From Lentzea aerocolonigenes (GTDB lineage Bacteria > Actinomycetota > Actinomycetes > Mycobacteriales > Pseudonocardiaceae): a DNA stretch of 64,000 bases. Shown in pieces: positions 52,928 to 60,189 of this stretch; positions within the stretch are counted from its first letter, which is position 1; each line of letters starts with the position of its first letter. Made by a program: the position numbers and the translations under genes. The stretch spans positions 1 through 64,000 of the forward strand of contig NZ_BBOJ01000037.1 of assembly GCF_000974445.1 (NCBI RefSeq), read 5' to 3'. Below the pieces are notes generated by a model, which had not been told where the DNA came from, made no database searches, and saw only the letters and a list, made by a program, of their open reading frames with translations.

Positions 52928-52953
52928 AACCTCCCGACTTCAGGCGGCAGGTT
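52928..52953 (-). ncRNA. Right-end hairpin, probable 3' part of the TnpB guide RNA scaffold
   Basis: AACCT...AGGTT closes a hairpin that includes the tnpB stop codon. In IS605-type elements the omega/reRNA begins inside the 3' end of tnpB and runs past the right end, so the guide would be read on the minus strand from about 52925 downward. Inferred from family knowledge and the visible hairpin. Confidence 0.45.
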
Positions 52954-54082
52954 CGGGCACGTTGACAAGTACCCACGCCGAGCGTGCACGGTTTCGCACG
53001 TTGATCCCGGCGACGTGATCAGCAGGCCCAGCGAAGCCGCACCGGCGACAACAAAACCGATCACGATCACGTCTGTTGTCGCGCGCTGTGTGTCCACAAC
53101 CAGGACACATCTGCGAGGTGAAGCGGGCGTCGACAGTGATCACCACGACACCGGCGCGTCTCGCCTTGTACGCGATGAACGCGCCGAGCTGGTGGAACGG
53201 CCAAGAAGAGCGGATGGCTCGCTGGTCACGACGAAGCTGTACCCGGTTGCGAATGCCCCTGAGATCCTCGAGGGCGATACCGCGCCCGGTGCGCTGCGCG
53301 ACAGCCACCAGTTTCTTGGCGATGACGTGATTGACGTTCGTGACGTGGCGATGCTCCCGCCGAGCACGCCGGCGAAGACGGCGAGTCGCCGACTTGGTCC
53401 GCTTGACCCGCAGCTCGGCGCGCTTTCTCTCCTGCCACCGCCGATACCGTCGCAACCGGAGACCTTGGAAGTTCGTGCCGTCCGACGTGGTGGCCAGGTT
53501 GACGATTCCGCGGTCCACCCCGATCCAGTCGCTCGGCACCACCGGCTCCGGTTCAGGCACCTCACAGGTCGCGATCAGCAGCCACTTGCCGTCTCTCCGG
53601 ACCAGGTCGGTCTCACCTCGGCGATGCGACCTGAGGCTGTCGAGTTGGGCTGGGTGTCCGACGATGCGGACACCCTTCAAACGGCCCGACGTCGTCCAGA
53701 TGGACACTGTCCGCGCGTCGTAGCGCCAAGAGAGCATGCGGTCGTCGAACGGCTGTGCCGCGCCCTTGCGAAACCTGATCGCCTTGCCCTCGGCTTTCCG
53801 GCGACGCGGCCCGGCGAGGTTCCCGGTTCGGATGCTCGCCTGCAGGCTGGCACAGGCGTCGACAACCTTCTTGATCGTCCGCACGGCGGCCTGGGCTCCC
53901 AAACCGAATCCCCGCACGTCCGCGTACACCAGTTTCTGCAGATCGTTGCGGGAGTGCACGCCTCGTTCGAACGCCATCTTCGAGACTTTGTCCGCAGCTG
54001 CGTTGCACGCGTGCAGGGTTTCCAACAGCGCCGCCGCCTGGACAGCGGACGGCAGCAGGCGGACCTGCACCACGACCTTCAC
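52940..54082 (-). CDS. tnpB: TnpB RNA-guided nuclease
   Basis: 380 residues from GTG 54082 (MKVVVQVRLLPSAVQAAALL); in-frame TTG 54136 would add 18 unlike residues. RuvC residues are all present: D190 (IGVDRGIVNLATTSDG), E272 (GIALEDLRGIRNR) and D355 (GPADHVAGINV). The zinc finger is C326-P-G-C329 ... C-C-R-R-C348. A basic helical region at 205-250 precedes RuvC-II. Such proteins cut DNA guided by an RNA from the element's right end and help the element persist; many are ancestors of Cas12. An intact triad suggests activity. No TnpA is present to move it. Confidence 0.88.
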   Translation of the reverse strand: MKVVVQVRLLPSAVQAAALLETLHACNAAADKVSKMAFERGVHSRNDLQKLVYADVRGFGLGAQAAVRTIKKVVDACASLQASIRTGNLAGPRRRKAEGKAIRFRKGAAQPFDDRMLSWRYDARTVSIWTTSGRLKGVRIVGHPAQLDSLRSHRRGETDLVRRDGKWLLIATCEVPEPEPVVPSDWIGVDRGIVNLATTSDGTNFQGLRLRRYRRWQERKRAELRVKRTKSATRRLRRRARREHRHVTNVNHVIAKKLVAVAQRTGRGIALEDLRGIRNRVQLRRDQRAIRSSWPFHQLGAFIAYKARRAGVVVITVDARFTSQMCPGCGHTARDNRRDRDRFCCRRCGFAGPADHVAGINVRNRARSAWVLVNVPEPAA

Positions 54083-54156
54083 TCGACCGATCTTGGAACA
54101 CGTGTTCGAGGCGTCGATCTCTGAGTACGGGGGCAAACGTGATTTCCTGCGCCCTC

Positions 54157-54205: not shown

Positions 54206-55369
54206 GTGCGGGTACCAGCGCTAGTCCCTCGGTTGCAGCCGTTCACGTCGACCATCTTCGCGGAGATGACGGCGCTGGCCGTGCAGCACGACGCCGTCAA
54301 CCTCGGTCAGGGTTTTCCCGACACCGACGGTCCCGCGTCGATGCTCGCGGCCGCCCAGTCCGCGATCGCGTCCGGCGTGAACCAGTACCCGCCCGGCACC
54401 GGCATGCCGGTGCTGCGCCGGGCCGTCGCGCAGCACCGTTCGCGGTACGGGCTCTCGTACGACCCGGACACCGAGGTCCTGGTGACCGTGGGCGCCACCG
54501 AGGCGATCGCGGCGTCGCTGCTGGCCCTGGTCGAGGCCGGTGACGAGGTCATCCTCATCGAGCCGTACTACGACTCCTACGCCGCTTCCGTGGCGATGGC
54601 CGGTGCCACGCGGGTGACCGTCGGCCTGCGCGAGGACGAGTCCGGACGGCTGGCGCTCGACGTGGACGCGTTGCGGGCGGCCGTCACGCCTCGGACGCGG
54701 GCGATCCTGGTCAACTCGCCGCACAACCCGACCGGGACCGTCTTCCGCTTGGAGGAGCTCCAAGCCATCGCCGCGTTGTGCGTCGAGCACGACCTGCTGG
54801 CGATCACCGACGAGGTCTACGAGCACCTGGTGTTCGACGGCCTGACGCACATCCCGCTGGCCTCGCTGCCCGGCATGGCCGCCCGGACGTTGTCGATCTC
54901 CGGCGCCGGCAAGACGTTCAACTGCACCGGTTGGAAGATCGGCTGGGTGTGCGGCCCCGCGGAGCTGGTGTCGGCGGTGCGCGCGGCCAAGCAGTTCATG
55001 ACCTTCGTGGGTGGGGCGCCGTTCCAGCCCGCCGTGGCGCACGCGCTGACCGCGGAACTGGACTGGGTCGGCGAGCTGCGCGACTCGTTGGCCTCGAAGC
55101 GCGCGCGCCTGGCCGAGGGGTTGCGTGCGGCCGGTTTCGAGGTGCGGTCGTCGGAGGGCACGTACTTCATCTGCGCCGACGTCCGCCCCCTCGGCTACAC
55201 GGACGGCTGGGCCCTGTGCCGCGACCTGCCGGCCCGGATCGGGGTCGCCGCGGTGCCGGTCCAGGTGTTCACCGACCGCCCGGAGCAGTGGCAGCACCTG
55301 ATCCGGTTCGCGTTCTGCAAGCAGGACGCGGTGATCGACGAAGCGGTGGAACGACTCCACAAGCTGTAG
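54206..55369 (+). CDS. Class I aminotransferase (DapC/kynurenine aminotransferase-like)
   Basis: 387 residues from GTG 54206. Substrate arm VNLGQGFPDTDGP, NSPHNPTGTVF, ITDEVYEHLVFDG and the PLP Lys in SISGAGKTFNCTGWKIGW are present, and an Arg near the C-terminus (LIRFAFCKQ) binds carboxylate. Homologues include the actinobacterial N-succinyl-diaminopimelate aminotransferase (Rv0858c) and kynurenine or methionine aminotransferases; sequence alone does not decide. The tnpB element lies immediately upstream and may carry or have displaced its promoter. Confidence 0.88.
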   Translation: MRVPALVPRLQPFTSTIFAEMTALAVQHDAVNLGQGFPDTDGPASMLAAAQSAIASGVNQYPPGTGMPVLRRAVAQHRSRYGLSYDPDTEVLVTVGATEAIAASLLALVEAGDEVILIEPYYDSYAASVAMAGATRVTVGLREDESGRLALDVDALRAAVTPRTRAILVNSPHNPTGTVFRLEELQAIAALCVEHDLLAITDEVYEHLVFDGLTHIPLASLPGMAARTLSISGAGKTFNCTGWKIGWVCGPAELVSAVRAAKQFMTFVGGAPFQPAVAHALTAELDWVGELRDSLASKRARLAEGLRAAGFEVRSSEGTYFICADVRPLGYTDGWALCRDLPARIGVAAVPVQVFTDRPEQWQHLIRFAFCKQDAVIDEAVERLHKL

Positions 55370-55411
55370 TTGTCCACAGGTGTGGACAGGTTTCTCCACA
55401 CCTGTGGACAA
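55370..55411. promoter_or_regulatory. Perfect inverted repeat made of two DnaA boxes
   Basis: TTGTCCACAGGTGTGGA (55370-55386) and its exact complement (55395-55411) around CAGGTTTC. The outer 9 bp of each arm, TTGTCCACA, is the actinobacterial DnaA-box consensus. It begins 1 bp after the aminotransferase stop, so it may serve as terminator, DnaA-binding site or both. No other origin feature is near. Confidence 0.7.
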
Positions 55412-55465
55412 CCCACTTTCGGGTGAGGCTTGGAGCCTTCACGCCGGGGTTCGACTCCAAATGGC

Positions 55466-55996
55466 ATGGACTCGAACACAGAGGTTCTCGAAGGCTGGCG
55501 TTCCGGGCTCTGCGGCTGGGACGCCCTCGTCGAGCGCTACTCCCGGCTGGTCTGGTCGGTGCCCAGATCGTTCCACCTGAGCCACGCCGACGCGGCCGAC
55601 GTCTACCAGTGCACGTGGCTCTGCCTGGCAGAACACCTCACCCGCATCCGCAAACCGGAGCACCTGGCCCGGTGGCTGGTCCGTACCGCCACCCGCCAGT
55701 CGATCACCGTGCTGCGCGCCCGCGGCCGCGAGGTGCTGCTGGACCTGTGGGAGCCGGAGTCGACGGCGCCGACGCCCGACGAGGTCGCACTGACCAACGA
55801 GAGGCAGCGGCGGCTGTGGTCGGCGCTGACAACGTTGAACGAGCGGTGCCAGCGGCTGCTGAGGATCGCTGCCCACAGCCCGGAGCTGAGTTATGCACAG
55901 GTTGCGGACGCCCTGGGGATAAAGGTGGGGAGCGTTGGGTCCACGCGGAGCCGGTGCCTCGCTGAGCTGCGGCGGAAGCTGGAGGACTGGCGATGA
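55466..55996 (+). CDS. Sigma-70 family (ECF-like) RNA polymerase sigma factor
   Basis: 176 residues from ATG 55466 (MDSNTEVLEGWRSG). Region 2 at 15-80 (WDALVERYSRLVWSVPRSFHLSHADAADVYQCTWLCLAEH), region 4 at 115-172 (ALTTLNERCQRLLRIAAHSPELSYAQVADALGIKVGSVGSTRSRCLAELR). It directs polymerase to a small set of promoters. It overlaps the next gene as ATGA and forms an operon with the CHAT gene. No conventional anti-sigma gene is visible. Confidence 0.9.
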   Translation: MDSNTEVLEGWRSGLCGWDALVERYSRLVWSVPRSFHLSHADAADVYQCTWLCLAEHLTRIRKPEHLARWLVRTATRQSITVLRARGREVLLDLWEPESTAPTPDEVALTNERQRRLWSALTTLNERCQRLLRIAAHSPELSYAQVADALGIKVGSVGSTRSRCLAELRRKLEDWR

Positions 55997-56361
55997 GGGA
56001 CTCGCTGCTCGACGAGATCGCCGACCTGTTCCGCGAGGACGCGCCACCACCAGCCCTCACCCCGCGCCCAACCGGCCTCGACCCCATGGAGCCCGTCCAA
56101 GAGCCCGTCCGCGGACCGTCCCGGCAGCTCGCGTTCCACGTCGGCTCCGGCCGCATGTACCTGCAGCTCGGCCCTTCTCACGCAGGCGTGCGCCTGACCG
56201 GCGTGCTGGACGAGGCCGTCTCCGTCGAGGTCCGCGAGCCCGACACGACCCAGACGCTCCGCCCGGACGCCGATGGCTGGTTCCGTGCCGACGTCAGGCC
56301 GGGGCCGGTGTGCGTGACCGTGCCCGAGCTGGGTCTCACGACCGGGTGGTTCGTCGCATGA
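55993..56361 (+). CDS. Small protein between sigma factor and CHAT protease
   Basis: 122 residues. N-terminal helix MRDSLLDEIADLFREDAPPP, Pro-rich linker, then strands (LAFHVGSGRMYLQLGPSHAGVRLTGVLDEAVSVEVREPD, VCVTVPELGLTTGWFVA) that look like a small beta-sandwich. The acidic helix and its place after a sigma gene suggest an anti-sigma or adaptor role. No known family recognised. 4-bp overlaps on both sides. Confidence 0.75.
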   Translation: MRDSLLDEIADLFREDAPPPALTPRPTGLDPMEPVQEPVRGPSRQLAFHVGSGRMYLQLGPSHAGVRLTGVLDEAVSVEVREPDTTQTLRPDADGWFRADVRPGPVCVTVPELGLTTGWFVA

Positions 56362-58352
56362 GCGCCAGCGCAGATCCGCGGGCCACCATCGCGACGACCG
56401 ACGTCCGCGGCACGAAACCCCAGCGCGCCGACGCTCTGCACAACCTGAGCGTCGCCCACGTCGAGCTCGGCCACCTCGACGTCGCCGCCCGGCTCGCCCG
56501 GCGCGGGTTGCGGCTCACCGGCGAGGCGCGGTTCCGGCTGACGCTGGCGTGGATCGACCTGGACCGCGGCCGGCGCAAGCAGAGCCTCCACCACCTGGAC
56601 CTCGCCACGCCGCACCTCCGCGGCCGCGAGCTGGCGAGGGCGCGGTGCCTGCGCGGACTCCACCTCTGCGCCGAGCCGCGACTCGCCATCGGCGAGCTCA
56701 CCGCGGTCATCAGGGAGCTGCGGCGGTACGGCGACGAACGCTGGCTGGCCAACGCGCTGGTCGGCAGGGGGATCGCGCGGTGCAACGCCACGCAGCTCGC
56801 CAGGGCGGAGGCCGACTTCGCCGCCGCGCAGACGGTGCTGCACGCCATCGGCGAACCCGGGCGCGCGGCGATGTGCCTGCACAACAGGGGATTCGTCGCG
56901 ATGCTCGCCGGTGACCTGCCGCTCGCGCTGCGGCGGTACGAGGACGCGGCGAAGGCGGGGCTCGACTCGACGAGCCGGCCGGAAGCGCTCGTCGACAGGG
57001 CGGAGGCGTTGCTGGCCGCGGGTCTCACGGCGGAGGCCCGCCGCGTGCTGGAACCCGCGGAACGTCTCCTGAAGCGGTGCGGACGAGAGGTGTCCGAGCT
57101 GGCGGTGCTGAGTGCTCGGTGTGCGTTGAGGGACGGAGATCCGGGGCCCGCGGTGCGGATCGGAGGTTCGGACGTCGAGTTCATGCTCGCCGCCGGGAAG
57201 CTCGACGCCGTTGCGGCGCACCGGTTTCGCGGGCCGGTGCAGACGCGGGCGCTCGGCTGGCTCGCGCAGGCACGCCGGTCGGACCGGCGGGGTGCGTTGG
57301 CGGCGTGCAGGGCCGGACTCAGGGTGCTCGACGAGCACCACGGCGACTGGCCGCGCCGCGAGCTGACCGGGCACGCGCTCGGGCTCGCACGGACGGCGCG
57401 CGAGGTGCTGGACTGGTCGGAGCAGCACCGGAGGACATCACCGCTGCCGCCACCGAACACGAAACTCGCACGGGCACTCACGGCACTGCGCCAGGCCCGC
57501 GCGCTCGGAGGCCAAGTCGAGGCGTTGGAGCGGGAGGTCCGCAGGACAGCGCTCGCCACGCGTCCTCGCCGCCTCCAGAAGGCAGCTGTCGCACCGGATC
57601 TGCCGCTGATCAGCTTCAGCCTCCACAGTGGACTCATGCGAGCCGTGACCGTGGTCGGCGGACGGGCCCGCCTGCACACCCTCCCGGATCCGGACCAACT
57701 GGTGCGGGAGAGCAGGTTGGCGCTCGCCGCGGGCAGGCGCGTGCCCGAGTTCGACCTGCTTCCCGACGCCGAGGAAGTGATCGTGGTTCCGGACGGAGTG
57801 CTCCACGACATGCCGTGGGCCGCGCACACCAACCTGGTGCACGTCATCCCTTCGCTGCGCCATTGGCACCCGCCAAGCCGTAGCGGCCGAAGAGTCTGGA
57901 TCACCGGCCCACAGCTCCACCACGACGAAGTGCCAGCACTGCACCAAAAATACGGCGGCCAAATCATCAATTCCACTGTGGACGACACCCTGCGCGGACT
58001 GGAAGGCGCCGGCATCGCCCACATCGCCGCCCACGGTCACGTCCACCCGGAGAACCCGCTCTTCTCCCACCTGGACCTGGACGACGGCCCCCTCTACGGC
58101 TACGACATCGCGAGGATCGCGCACCCGCCCGAGATCGTCGTGCTGTCCGCCTGCGAGTCAGGCCTCGCCAGAACGTTCCTCGACGCCGGCACCCGAGCGG
58201 TGATCGCCAGCGTGCTGCCGGTGCCGGACGCCCAGGTCTGCGCGGCCATGACCGAGGTGCACCGCCTGATCGGCCACCCCGCACGAGCCGCGCGGGCCGT
58301 CGCGCACCTCGGGTTCAGCTGTTACGGCACGGGCACCAGGGTGGCGGCGTGA
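56358..58352 (+). CDS. TPR-CHAT protease (caspase-like)
   Basis: 664 residues from ATG 56358, overlapping the previous stop. Residues 20-330 are TPR-like helical pairs (ADALHNLSVAHVELGHLDVAARLARRGL; MCLHNRGFVAMLAGDLPLALRRYEDAA). Residues about 415-655 form a CHAT domain with the catalytic pair His559 (HIAAHGHVHPENP) and Cys599 (IVVLSACESGLA). CHAT proteases include separase-like enzymes and the Craspase Csx29. Co-translation with a sigma factor and convergence on a subtilisin-like gene suggest a proteolytic signalling module. Last 31 bp overlap the S8 gene. Confidence 0.88.
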   Translation: MSASADPRATIATTDVRGTKPQRADALHNLSVAHVELGHLDVAARLARRGLRLTGEARFRLTLAWIDLDRGRRKQSLHHLDLATPHLRGRELARARCLRGLHLCAEPRLAIGELTAVIRELRRYGDERWLANALVGRGIARCNATQLARAEADFAAAQTVLHAIGEPGRAAMCLHNRGFVAMLAGDLPLALRRYEDAAKAGLDSTSRPEALVDRAEALLAAGLTAEARRVLEPAERLLKRCGREVSELAVLSARCALRDGDPGPAVRIGGSDVEFMLAAGKLDAVAAHRFRGPVQTRALGWLAQARRSDRRGALAACRAGLRVLDEHHGDWPRRELTGHALGLARTAREVLDWSEQHRRTSPLPPPNTKLARALTALRQARALGGQVEALEREVRRTALATRPRRLQKAAVAPDLPLISFSLHSGLMRAVTVVGGRARLHTLPDPDQLVRESRLALAAGRRVPEFDLLPDAEEVIVVPDGVLHDMPWAAHTNLVHVIPSLRHWHPPSRSGRRVWITGPQLHHDEVPALHQKYGGQIINSTVDDTLRGLEGAGIAHIAAHGHVHPENPLFSHLDLDDGPLYGYDIARIAHPPEIVVLSACESGLARTFLDAGTRAVIASVLPVPDAQVCAAMTEVHRLIGHPARAARAVAHLGFSCYGTGTRVAA

Positions 58353-59236
58353 AGCGCGGCGGCGAACGACGTGCCGGTGCACAGCAGCTGCGACGATCCG
58401 ACCGTGGCCGGCACGTCGACCCCGTCCGCCACGACGTTCACCCACGGCCCGCGGCCCGAGAACGACGCCGAGGCCCCCACCGCGGTCACGGCGGGCAAGG
58501 CTGCGGGCCACCACGGGCGGGACGAGCCTCCGTTGCCCGCCGCCGCCACCACGTTGCGGCCGCACGCCGCCAGGACGGGAGGGCACTCGTCGTTGAACGA
58601 GTACGTGCCCGAGGCAACCAGGACCACCGGCAGGTCACGGGTGGCGCGCAGGGCGGCCGCGAGGGTCAGGTCGTCACCGAAGCCTGAAGCCGTCAGGACC
58701 GGGAACGGGCGCACCGAGGCGCCGTGGTGCCGCAGGACCCCGGCGACCAACGAGCCGTGCGGGGCATCGAGAGGGGTGTCCAGCAACGCGACGGTGCCCT
58801 CGCCCAGGAGCTCGGGGAGGCGGGTGCCGATCACCGGGCGCGAGGTGCCGATCATGATCGGGCAGGCTAGATGGACGTGGTTCGGGGCGGCGCCGACCTC
58901 ACGGGCGATGTCGACGACACGTGCCCGTTCGGACGCCTTGGTGTACATGCGGATGGCGCCCGACGCGATCTCCTCGTGCGAGTAGACGCCGCGCAAGCGC
59001 TTGCGCACAGTGGGTGCGTCCGCTGGCAAGACGATCAGTTCCCCCGAACGGACCAAACACTCGTTCGGGCCCGCGACGTCGTGCGCCAGCACCGGGCCGA
59101 GGGCACTGGAGGCGTGATCGACCAGCTCAGAGAGGCTGTTGACCTGCTTTGGCGTGTCCACAACGGACACCATCCCCCGCCGCGACACGGTCCACAGGGG
59201 ACCAACCGGCAATGTCACTCGATCCGATGACGACAC
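58322..59236 (-). CDS. Compact subtilisin-like (S8) serine protease, cytoplasmic
   Basis: 304 residues from GTG 59236; an ATG at 59173 is an alternative. No signal peptide. Residues 1-145 show no recognised domain. The S8 core is short: Asp153 in VALLDTPLDAPHG, His160 in PHGSLVAGVLRHHG, Asn in VAAAGNGGSS and Ser290 in CTGTSFAAALHAAT. Asp and His are 7 residues apart, against about 30 in ordinary subtilisins, so the first loop is deleted or another Asp serves. Convergent with and overlapping the CHAT gene. Confidence 0.82.
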   Translation of the reverse strand: MSSSDRVTLPVGPLWTVSRRGMVSVVDTPKQVNSLSELVDHASSALGPVLAHDVAGPNECLVRSGELIVLPADAPTVRKRLRGVYSHEEIASGAIRMYTKASERARVVDIAREVGAAPNHVHLACPIMIGTSRPVIGTRLPELLGEGTVALLDTPLDAPHGSLVAGVLRHHGASVRPFPVLTASGFGDDLTLAAALRATRDLPVVLVASGTYSFNDECPPVLAACGRNVVAAAGNGGSSRPWWPAALPAVTAVGASASFSGRGPWVNVVADGVDVPATVGSSQLLCTGTSFAAALHAATLVPVP

Positions 59237-59412
59237 TGACGGTGTTCATGCCTGATCAGGGCAACACGGACAGCCGCACGAGAACGCCCTTCCGAGTGTT
59301 TTGTGCGGAGTTGGTTCGCAAAGCCACTCACCAGTGCTAGACATAGCTCAACGTCGACCTCCGACGGCGCTGTGCGTTGGCGGTGACCTGAACGGTGGAC
59401 GGTGGTGATCCT

Positions 59413-60189
59413 GTGGCAGGTGGTGGAGCTGGTGCACTGCTGCTGCGGGCCGCTGCGCTCGGCGGGCTGACCGCCGCCGCCTGGCTGCTGAGCGGGACGA
59501 ACGCGTCCGCCAGCCCCGAGGAACCGCCGGCCGTCGAGATCGCCGTCGAGATTCCGCAGCTGCGGGAGGACCCCGCCGGCTGGGCCCAGGCGTTCACCGC
59601 GACCGTCATCGAGCGGCACAACAGGGCCGCGTTCGTGCCTCCGCCGGTCGTGACGAAGCCGGAAGAGCCCCAGGAAACCGAAGACGAGGGCCCGGTCCTC
59701 GACTTCAGCGGCGGCTCGCAGGGCAACACCCGCTCGGGTTCGGTCTCGAACGAGGCGCCACCCGAGGTGATCCAGGCGAAGGCGCAGGTCCGCGCCGCGA
59801 AGAAGGCCGCTAAGGCCGCCGCCGAACTGCCTCCGCCACCGCCACCGCCCGCACCGCCCGCCGCGGTCCCGGTCAAGAAGGCCGTGCCGCTGCTGCCCGA
59901 CGTCCCGGTTGCCGCGCCCGTGAAGACCGAGCCGGCGCCGGTGAGCGACCTCACCTGGACCGTGCCCGGCCACGACGTTCCGCTGCCCGCGCCGCAGCAG
60001 GCACCCGTCGTCGCCACGGCCTCCGCGTCGTCCGGCCACACCGACAACTCCGGCGGCACGCGCGGCGTGCTCGCCGTTCTGACGTCGCACAACTCGCTCT
60101 TCCCTCCCACGACGTGGTCGGTCGAGGAGCGTCGCGACGGTCGCTCACCGGGCAGCTTGCCCGGCCTCCCGAGCACGTCACCCGACTGA
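59413..60189 (+). CDS. Secreted Pro/Ala-rich protein
   Basis: 258 residues from GTG 59413 (MAGGGAGALLLRAAALGGL). Signal peptide about 1-33 (cleavage near NASAS). A short ordered block (VEIAVEIPQLREDPAGWAQAFTATVIERHN) is followed by a long Pro/Ala/Val-rich region with a poly-Pro run at about 140-150. No family recognised. Probably cell-wall associated. Confidence 0.65.
   Translation: MAGGGAGALLLRAAALGGLTAAAWLLSGTNASASPEEPPAVEIAVEIPQLREDPAGWAQAFTATVIERHNRAAFVPPPVVTKPEEPQETEDEGPVLDFSGGSQGNTRSGSVSNEAPPEVIQAKAQVRAAKKAAKAAAELPPPPPPPAPPAAVPVKKAVPLLPDVPVAAPVKTEPAPVSDLTWTVPGHDVPLPAPQQAPVVATASASSGHTDNSGGTRGVLAVLTSHNSLFPPTTWSVEERRDGRSPGSLPGLPSTSPD

Follow-up and report, generated by a model that had tools for sequence, protein, structure and literature searches.

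The locus and its four genes

We analysed a locus of Lentzea aerocolonigenes in which genes for an extracytoplasmic function (ECF) sigma factor (SIG), a small protein (SML) and a protease with tetratricopeptide repeats (TPR) and a CHAT domain (CHAT) run towards a gene for a subtilisin-like protease of family S8 (S8). The window, meaning the whole 64,000-nucleotide stretch that was analysed (positions 1 to 64,000 of contig NZ_BBOJ01000037.1, assembly GCF_000974445.1), is part of a 10.7-Mb genome, and all four genes are intact open reading frames within it (Table 1). The SIG/SML and SML/CHAT junctions are ATGA overlaps of 4 bp each, 4-bp overlaps among these three genes are also present in many relatives, and the 3' end of CHAT reaches 31 bp into the convergent S8 gene. 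A first-pass annotation, made from the sequence alone, had described this arrangement and placed the catalytic residues of CHAT at His559 and Cys599. Re-reading of the coordinates confirmed the arrangement, and both residues are invariant in 42 aligned sequences; its starting point of 55370 takes in intergenic region, the sigma gene proper beginning only at 55466.

Table 1. Coordinates in the window of the four genes and of the conserved stretch upstream of SIG
Feature	Description	Position	Strand	Basis
SIG	ECF-type sigma-70 factor, 176 aa	55466-55996	+	TIGR02937, 82.9 bits (cut-off 42.9); Sigma70_r2
SML	122 aa, candidate anti-sigma factor and protease substrate	55993-56361	+
CHAT	TPR-CHAT cysteine protease, 664 aa, His559 / Cys599	56358-58352	+	Pfam CHAT, TPR_12
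S8	compact subtilisin-like protease, 304 aa, Asp153 / His160 / Ser290	58322-59236	-
Upstream stretch	promoter-like, conserved 5' of SIG (CTTTCGGGTGAG, GGAGCC, TTCGACTCCAA)	55412-55461	+	alignment with 19 Lentzea relatives

The four genes recur in unchanged order in 18 of 19 Lentzea-named loci, the exception being L056, whose contig stops within CHAT. Identity to the window among these loci is approximately 80-90% for SIG, 66-80% for SML, 76-80% for full-length CHAT and 82-91% for S8. Given this retention and these identities, all four are real, retained genes, and the four-gene observation is confirmed.

Profile searches place SIG among the ECF sigma factors (TIGR02937 as in Table 1; Sigma70_r2 at 39.8 bits, cut-off 24). 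CHAT, which overlaps SML by 4 bp, matches the Pfam CHAT model at 64 bits (cut-off 24) and TPR_12 at 30.8 bits (cut-off 30.1), and the CHAT-family profile reaches two solved chains annotated as 'CHAT domain protein', 8d9f and 8d9g, at E 2e-4, which we take to be Craspase. S8 scores below threshold against Pfam S8 (14.2 bits, cut-off 21.8) and far under the cut-off of the mycosin model (25.5 bits, E 6e-6). Its Asp-His-Ser triad can nonetheless be read in subtilase order together with Asn235, the triad is kept in the window and 14 Lentzea-type rows, and the protein lies within the branch of linked S8s described below; we therefore count it as a subtilase. No signal peptide was seen in it by eye. 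The Lentzea protein is trimmed, with 7 residues between Asp and His versus 36-39 in five relatives and a shortened C-terminus. The trimmed subtilase is nonetheless well conserved, at 82-91% identity within Lentzea.

The window SML matched no family above cut-off in library scans. Its score against Pfam CarboxypepD_reg is below threshold (14.6 bits, E 0.044, cut-off 32.3), and it is not among the 15 of 76 SML relatives that match this family at E <=0.01. An AlphaFold2 model of SML (mean pLDDT 84) consists of a helix (residues 4-14), a flexible or uncertain linker (15-43) and a beta domain (44-122). The least certain stretch, residues 37-39, adjoins residue 40, which is Arg in 75 of the 76 relatives and Lys in one (L135, on contig 54 of the same genome); the residue before it is mostly hydrophobic and the residue after it mostly small. 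We propose this linker Arg as a candidate cleavage site.

A published review describes the same gene context for the sigma factor group ECF54, namely conserved carboxypeptidase, subtilase and CHAT proteins, and reports, in the parts accessible to us, a proposal of proteolytic control without an anti-sigma factor (PMC8999054). For this reason the window most likely represents an ECF54 locus, judged by gene context from the review's description. The likeness lies in the ECF sigma factor, the subtilase and the CHAT protein, and in the CarboxypepD_reg matches among SML relatives, if, as seems plausible, the review's 'carboxypeptidase' is this family; the trimmed Lentzea S8 is a difference. The primary papers on ECF54 are said to be Huang 2015 and Casas-Pastor 2021.

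Fusion of SML to the sigma factor

We scanned 193 loci in six frames for SIG and SML in one open frame, and found this only in loci of one genus. Seven of the eight genomes of that genus encode a fused protein of 271-312 aa, with CHAT next to its gene; in the remaining genome SIG and SML are separate. The fused frame covers the SIG profile from position 15 to approximately 180 of 186, the SML helix runs on from sigma region 4, and all seven linkers contain Thr-Arg-Ser or Thr-Arg-Asn. The frames of L074, L077 and L097 were read from the six-frame scans; the codon-usage gene caller had shortened them. Because the two are fused in these seven genomes, SML is very probably SIG's own regulatory domain or partner; the first-pass annotation had named the small protein as a possible anti-sigma factor. 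We regard the fusion as the strongest indication of SML acting on SIG itself. The published view of ECF54, as far as the review's accessible text goes, does not cast the carboxypeptidase-like protein as a sigma partner, which is what we argue here from the fusion.

Linkage within the family and across the phylum

We assembled two sets of loci: (i) a family set, selected with CHAT, and (ii) a phylum set, selected with SML. For the family set, 150 genomes were searched, 103 had a match, and 40 regions plus one named locus were taken (n=41); the count of CHAT in a set chosen by CHAT is without meaning. SIG lies within 5 kb of SML in 41 of 41 loci, S8 in 24 and an aminotransferase gene in 35. SIG is directly upstream of SML in 38, and the remaining three are SIG-SML fusions. 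Genes in fetched loci were called with a home-made codon-usage caller, which missed CHAT in four of the 41 loci (L072, L086, L093 and L095, where the match lies beside SML by coordinates) and shortened it in L097.

Since the aminotransferase is more constant than S8, the family set alone cannot show that S8 belongs with the other genes. SIG, SML and CHAT sit between the aminotransferase and S8 in two orientations within the family, and S8 could thus stand beside them by chromosomal synteny only, as the aminotransferase does. The phylum set bears on this. A profile of 14 SMLs was run against 396 genomes, and the 37 with a match are a minimum, because a single family dominates the profile. From 47 SML places we left out the window, two places on short contigs and six that were weaker or secondary, which left 38 places in 36 loci, four of these loci being from the source genome. 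In 32 of the 36, SIG immediately precedes SML on the same strand. CHAT occurs within 5 kb in 23, S8 in 22 and SIG, CHAT and S8 together in 20, whereas the aminotransferase occurs in none. A rough chance estimate, from the source genome alone, is 4-5% for S8 (46 places) and 1% for CHAT (8 places). Gene orders vary: S8-SIG-SML-CHAT, CHAT divergent from S8-SIG-SML, SIG-SML-S8-CHAT, and others. With S8 in 22 of 36 loci and in many orders, against an aminotransferase count of zero, and with linked S8s forming a branch distinct from 15 unlinked ones, synteny as the sole cause of S8 linkage is largely refuted and very improbable, and we rejected it. The four genes are thus linked well beyond close relatives, as the first-pass annotation had asked to be checked, and the window holds one copy of a set that is widespread in actinobacteria.

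The constancy of the SIG-SML pair bears on a further alternative, in which SIG itself is the substrate: CHAT, S8 or both would degrade or trim the sigma factor, there would be no anti-sigma factor, and SML would serve as an adaptor. In the SML-selected set, however, SML is the most constant partner of SIG (32 of 36), also where no protease is nearby, and it is fused to SIG in the genus described above. A dedicated regulatory domain fits a constant and fused SML better than a protease adaptor does, and we consider SIG as substrate distinctly unlikely.

We also considered a mobile or defence-island origin, in line with the earlier suggestion of a conflict system. In a PADLOC scan, the single match of CHAT was a partial one, to BovA (residues 565-625, E 4e-6), and SIG had a single match, to AriA (E 0.02). 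CHAT had no match among 50,697 phage records and matched one record of a plasmid collection, of 11.85 Mb, at 33% identity. With gene order conserved on the chromosome in the family, we rejected such an origin, and the conflict-system idea is unsupported.

Two groups of phylum loci are of separate note. SIG-SML pairs without CHAT or S8 within 5 kb in L142, L154, L155 and L156 share a similar neighbourhood, and the 453-aa gene before SIG in L142 encodes cytochrome b. In L160 and L162, two CHATs and several SMLs and S8s surround a single SIG, perhaps as several inputs on one sigma factor.

Co-inheritance of the set and repeats in S8

The source genome holds two further full sets (contigs 33 and 54), three in total with the window, as well as a CHAT-S8 pair on contig 53 and two SIG-SML pairs (contigs 41 and 37), whose fetched 18 kb contain neither S8 nor CHAT. 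We built a tree of S8 proteins, calling an S8 'linked' if a fetched locus contained it, whatever the distance, as a match at E <1e-8; the 15 unlinked S8s were recovered by the gene caller and a GTS-motif filter from 20 regions of the source genome. The tree omits L058, L061 and L064 (records the same as L062 or each other; the L061/L064 record is absent) and L136 and L161 (without GTSF). One branch, with support 100/99, splits the 47 linked from the 15 unlinked S8s, and the S8s of the window, contig 33 and contig 54 fall in three different linked branches. Five lineages of the S8 tree recur in the SIG, SML and CHAT trees, all five together requiring four changes in each tree, which is the minimum, versus a mean of approximately 13.6 after shuffling (26 rows each). 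We read this as suggesting that parts of the sets are rarely exchanged between lineages, even with three lineages in one genome.

Linked S8s also differ in composition. Two or more tandem units, each six residues or longer, are present in 19 of 51 linked S8s (49 distinct) versus 0 of 15 unlinked ones. Tandem hexapeptides, NPAYQG-like and others, in up to eight units, occur in the linked S8s of L140, L144, L161, L151, L160, L162 and L149; in L140 (12082-13506) eight NPAYQG-like units lie between the N-terminal part and the catalytic domain. These hexapeptide repeats are possibly a docking or processing site.

A proposed proteolytic switch

We sought models for such a set among systems in which a protease controls an ECF sigma factor. 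In one proven precedent, the TPR-CHAT protease Csx29 cuts the sigma inhibitor Csx30 and thereby presumably lifts the block on an ECF sigma factor (PMC10028731); in another, CalpL cuts the anti-sigma factor CalpT (PMC11417357). By analogy with Csx29/Csx30 and CalpL/CalpT, we propose that the locus encodes an ECF54-type sigma switch under two proteases, with protease-triggered release of SIG from SML, and put the probability of this at about 0.5. SML would keep SIG inactive, its N-terminal helix and a DPxP stretch continuing from sigma region 4 and its beta domain being carried on the flexible linker. A signal received at the TPR part would activate CHAT. CHAT would then bring about a cut in the SML linker, either itself or through activation of S8; the near-invariant Arg40 plausibly marks the position after which the cut falls. 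The freed SIG would transcribe its own operon and further targets. The binding, inhibition and cleavage that this entails we infer, as we do the order of the two proteases, the cut site, the autoregulation and the role of CHAT as receiver.

One version of this switch is a cascade in which CHAT activates an S8 zymogen, through its N-terminal part or the hexapeptide linker, and S8 cuts SML or other targets. The N-terminal part and tandem repeats of linked S8s agree with it, as does the persistence of S8 with the set through many gene orders. Yet by our own gene calls S8 is missing from the 5 kb on either side of SML in 17 of the 41 family loci, and by eye the repeat of the window S8 is reduced to one or two degenerate units; we consider the cascade doubtful.

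Several observations weigh against the two-protease switch as a whole. Besides the 17 family loci just mentioned (in one of which S8 lies at 5,009 bp and in another the contig begins at the locus), 12 of the 36 phylum loci have neither protease within 5 kb, a few of them near contig ends. Residue 40 is Arg in all 11 aligned SMLs whose loci lack both S8 and CHAT within 5 kb; being kept without nearby proteases, it may be structural, or it may be cut in trans. In the accessible text on Csx30 no single residue is essential for cleavage (PMC10028731), so an Arg rule is not what that case would lead one to expect. SML has no clear sequence relation to a known anti-sigma factor, with one ChrR match at E 0.14. 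The trimmed Lentzea S8 may not be a working protease, though conserved. As for the trees, the five lineages were chosen by eye from the S8 tree; group A alone takes two changes in the SML tree, owing to one weakly placed row, and is not one clade there; some supports are weak (75 for SIG group A, 55 for SML group B); and groups D and E may simply follow host phylogeny.

The loci without a nearby protease and the Arg kept in them also favour a different account, in which SML is an uncut, ligand-binding beta-sandwich domain that senses for and regulates SIG. CHAT and S8, for their part, would be regulon members or effectors that are produced or matured once SIG is active. C-terminal extensions are described as controlling ECF sigma factors by conformational change, in the accessible text of the review (PMC8999054). 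Against this account, the 4-bp overlaps of SIG, SML and CHAT suit stoichiometric regulators more than effectors, and proteases of two kinds stay with the SIG-SML pair in many gene orders. We consider an uncut SML unlikely.

Relation to described systems

The gene grouping itself is already on record, and its mechanism is open. The first-pass annotation was not aware of any system built from exactly these parts. The carboxypeptidase, subtilase and CHAT surroundings of ECF54 had, in fact, already been published, and proteolysis without an anti-sigma factor is the reading given for it, with no experiment mentioned in the accessible parts of the review (PMC8999054). Of that interpretation as a whole, the wide linkage and the sigma partner stand, whereas the undescribed system and the conflict system do not. 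Our additions are the argument that the carboxypeptidase-like protein is a sigma partner, evidence that the four parts form a coherent set, and a candidate site of cleavage. Among the papers listed by our literature searches, the four-part context appeared in PMC8999054. The literature searched, some of it seen in part, yielded no mention of a SIG-SML fusion or of SML as an anti-sigma factor, although the fusion was not itself the target of any search; queries worded around the S8 family gave no paper.

Among systems with related parts, CASP or Craspase (type III-E Cas7-11, Csx29, Csx30 and CASP-sigma) is similar in having a TPR-CHAT protease, a sigma inhibitor, which SML would be here, and an ECF sigma factor, as far as the accessible text describes it (PMC10028731). 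It differs in that SML has 122 aa and Csx30 565 aa, with no sequence relation detected, and in that an S8 protease is added here. A profile of the 76 SMLs against solved chains gave beta-sandwich matches only, with none of the eight sequences listed named Csx30. No Cas7-11 was found by Pfam in the nine neighbouring genes (47.5-63.1 kb; the rest of the genome was not searched for it), and no CRISPR array at 45-64 kb, where there are only two-copy repeats. CalpL/CalpT/CalpS shares the principle that a protease cutting an anti-sigma factor frees an ECF sigma factor, a cleavage that we propose here; as described in the accessible text, that system uses a Lon-SAVED protease and a cyclic tetra-adenylate signal, without CHAT or S8 (PMC11417357). 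In a predicted EACC2-containing system, likened by its description only, an ECF sigma factor is likewise expected to act together with TPR repeats and a peptidase of the caspase class; there, TPR and caspase are on separate proteins, and the accessible text names neither SML nor S8.

ECF54 has been listed as a group presumed to be protease-controlled, and the fusion and the linker Arg make this control directly testable, with one small protein, one candidate cut site and two candidate enzymes. In a broader and more tentative reading, the locus would represent a non-CRISPR chromosomal counterpart of CASP, widespread in actinobacteria, in which SML forms a new class of soluble anti-sigma factor, one that a TPR-CHAT / S8 pair cuts after the conserved Arg of the linker and that in some cases is part of the sigma factor itself. 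CASP might have arisen by recruitment of such a module to Cas7-11. If this were true, protease-to-transcription switches would form a broad class, RNA-guided CASP would be one particular instance of it, and other triggers would await discovery.

Upstream region and neighbouring features

The conserved stretch upstream of SIG (Table 1) occurs as a pattern once in the 10.7-Mb genome and so provides no list of regulon targets. Some other genera, judged by eye, have a similar layout ahead of SIG, TTCGGG / GGATCC / N16 / CTTCCAA. In the 40 family loci, a looser form of the pattern preceded 10 of 39 SIG genes; the corresponding counts were 0 of 47 AT, 0 of 36 CHAT, 0 of 23 S8 and 0 of 6 P6 genes, and 1 of 581 others. 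It has chance places in the window too, and the enrichment at SIG is weak because the loci are related. A scan of 55300-59500 for standard sigma-70 promoters and terminators found nothing.

Between the aminotransferase stop and SIG, an inverted repeat, TTGTCCACA ... TGTGGACAA, spans 55370-55411. Its two outer words, which resemble DnaA boxes, are conserved between the window and each of the 19 aligned Lentzea relatives. Just before the aminotransferase, a TnpB/OrfB-type transposon gene (Cas12f1-like_TNB, OrfB_IS605) lies on the minus strand at 52943-54136.

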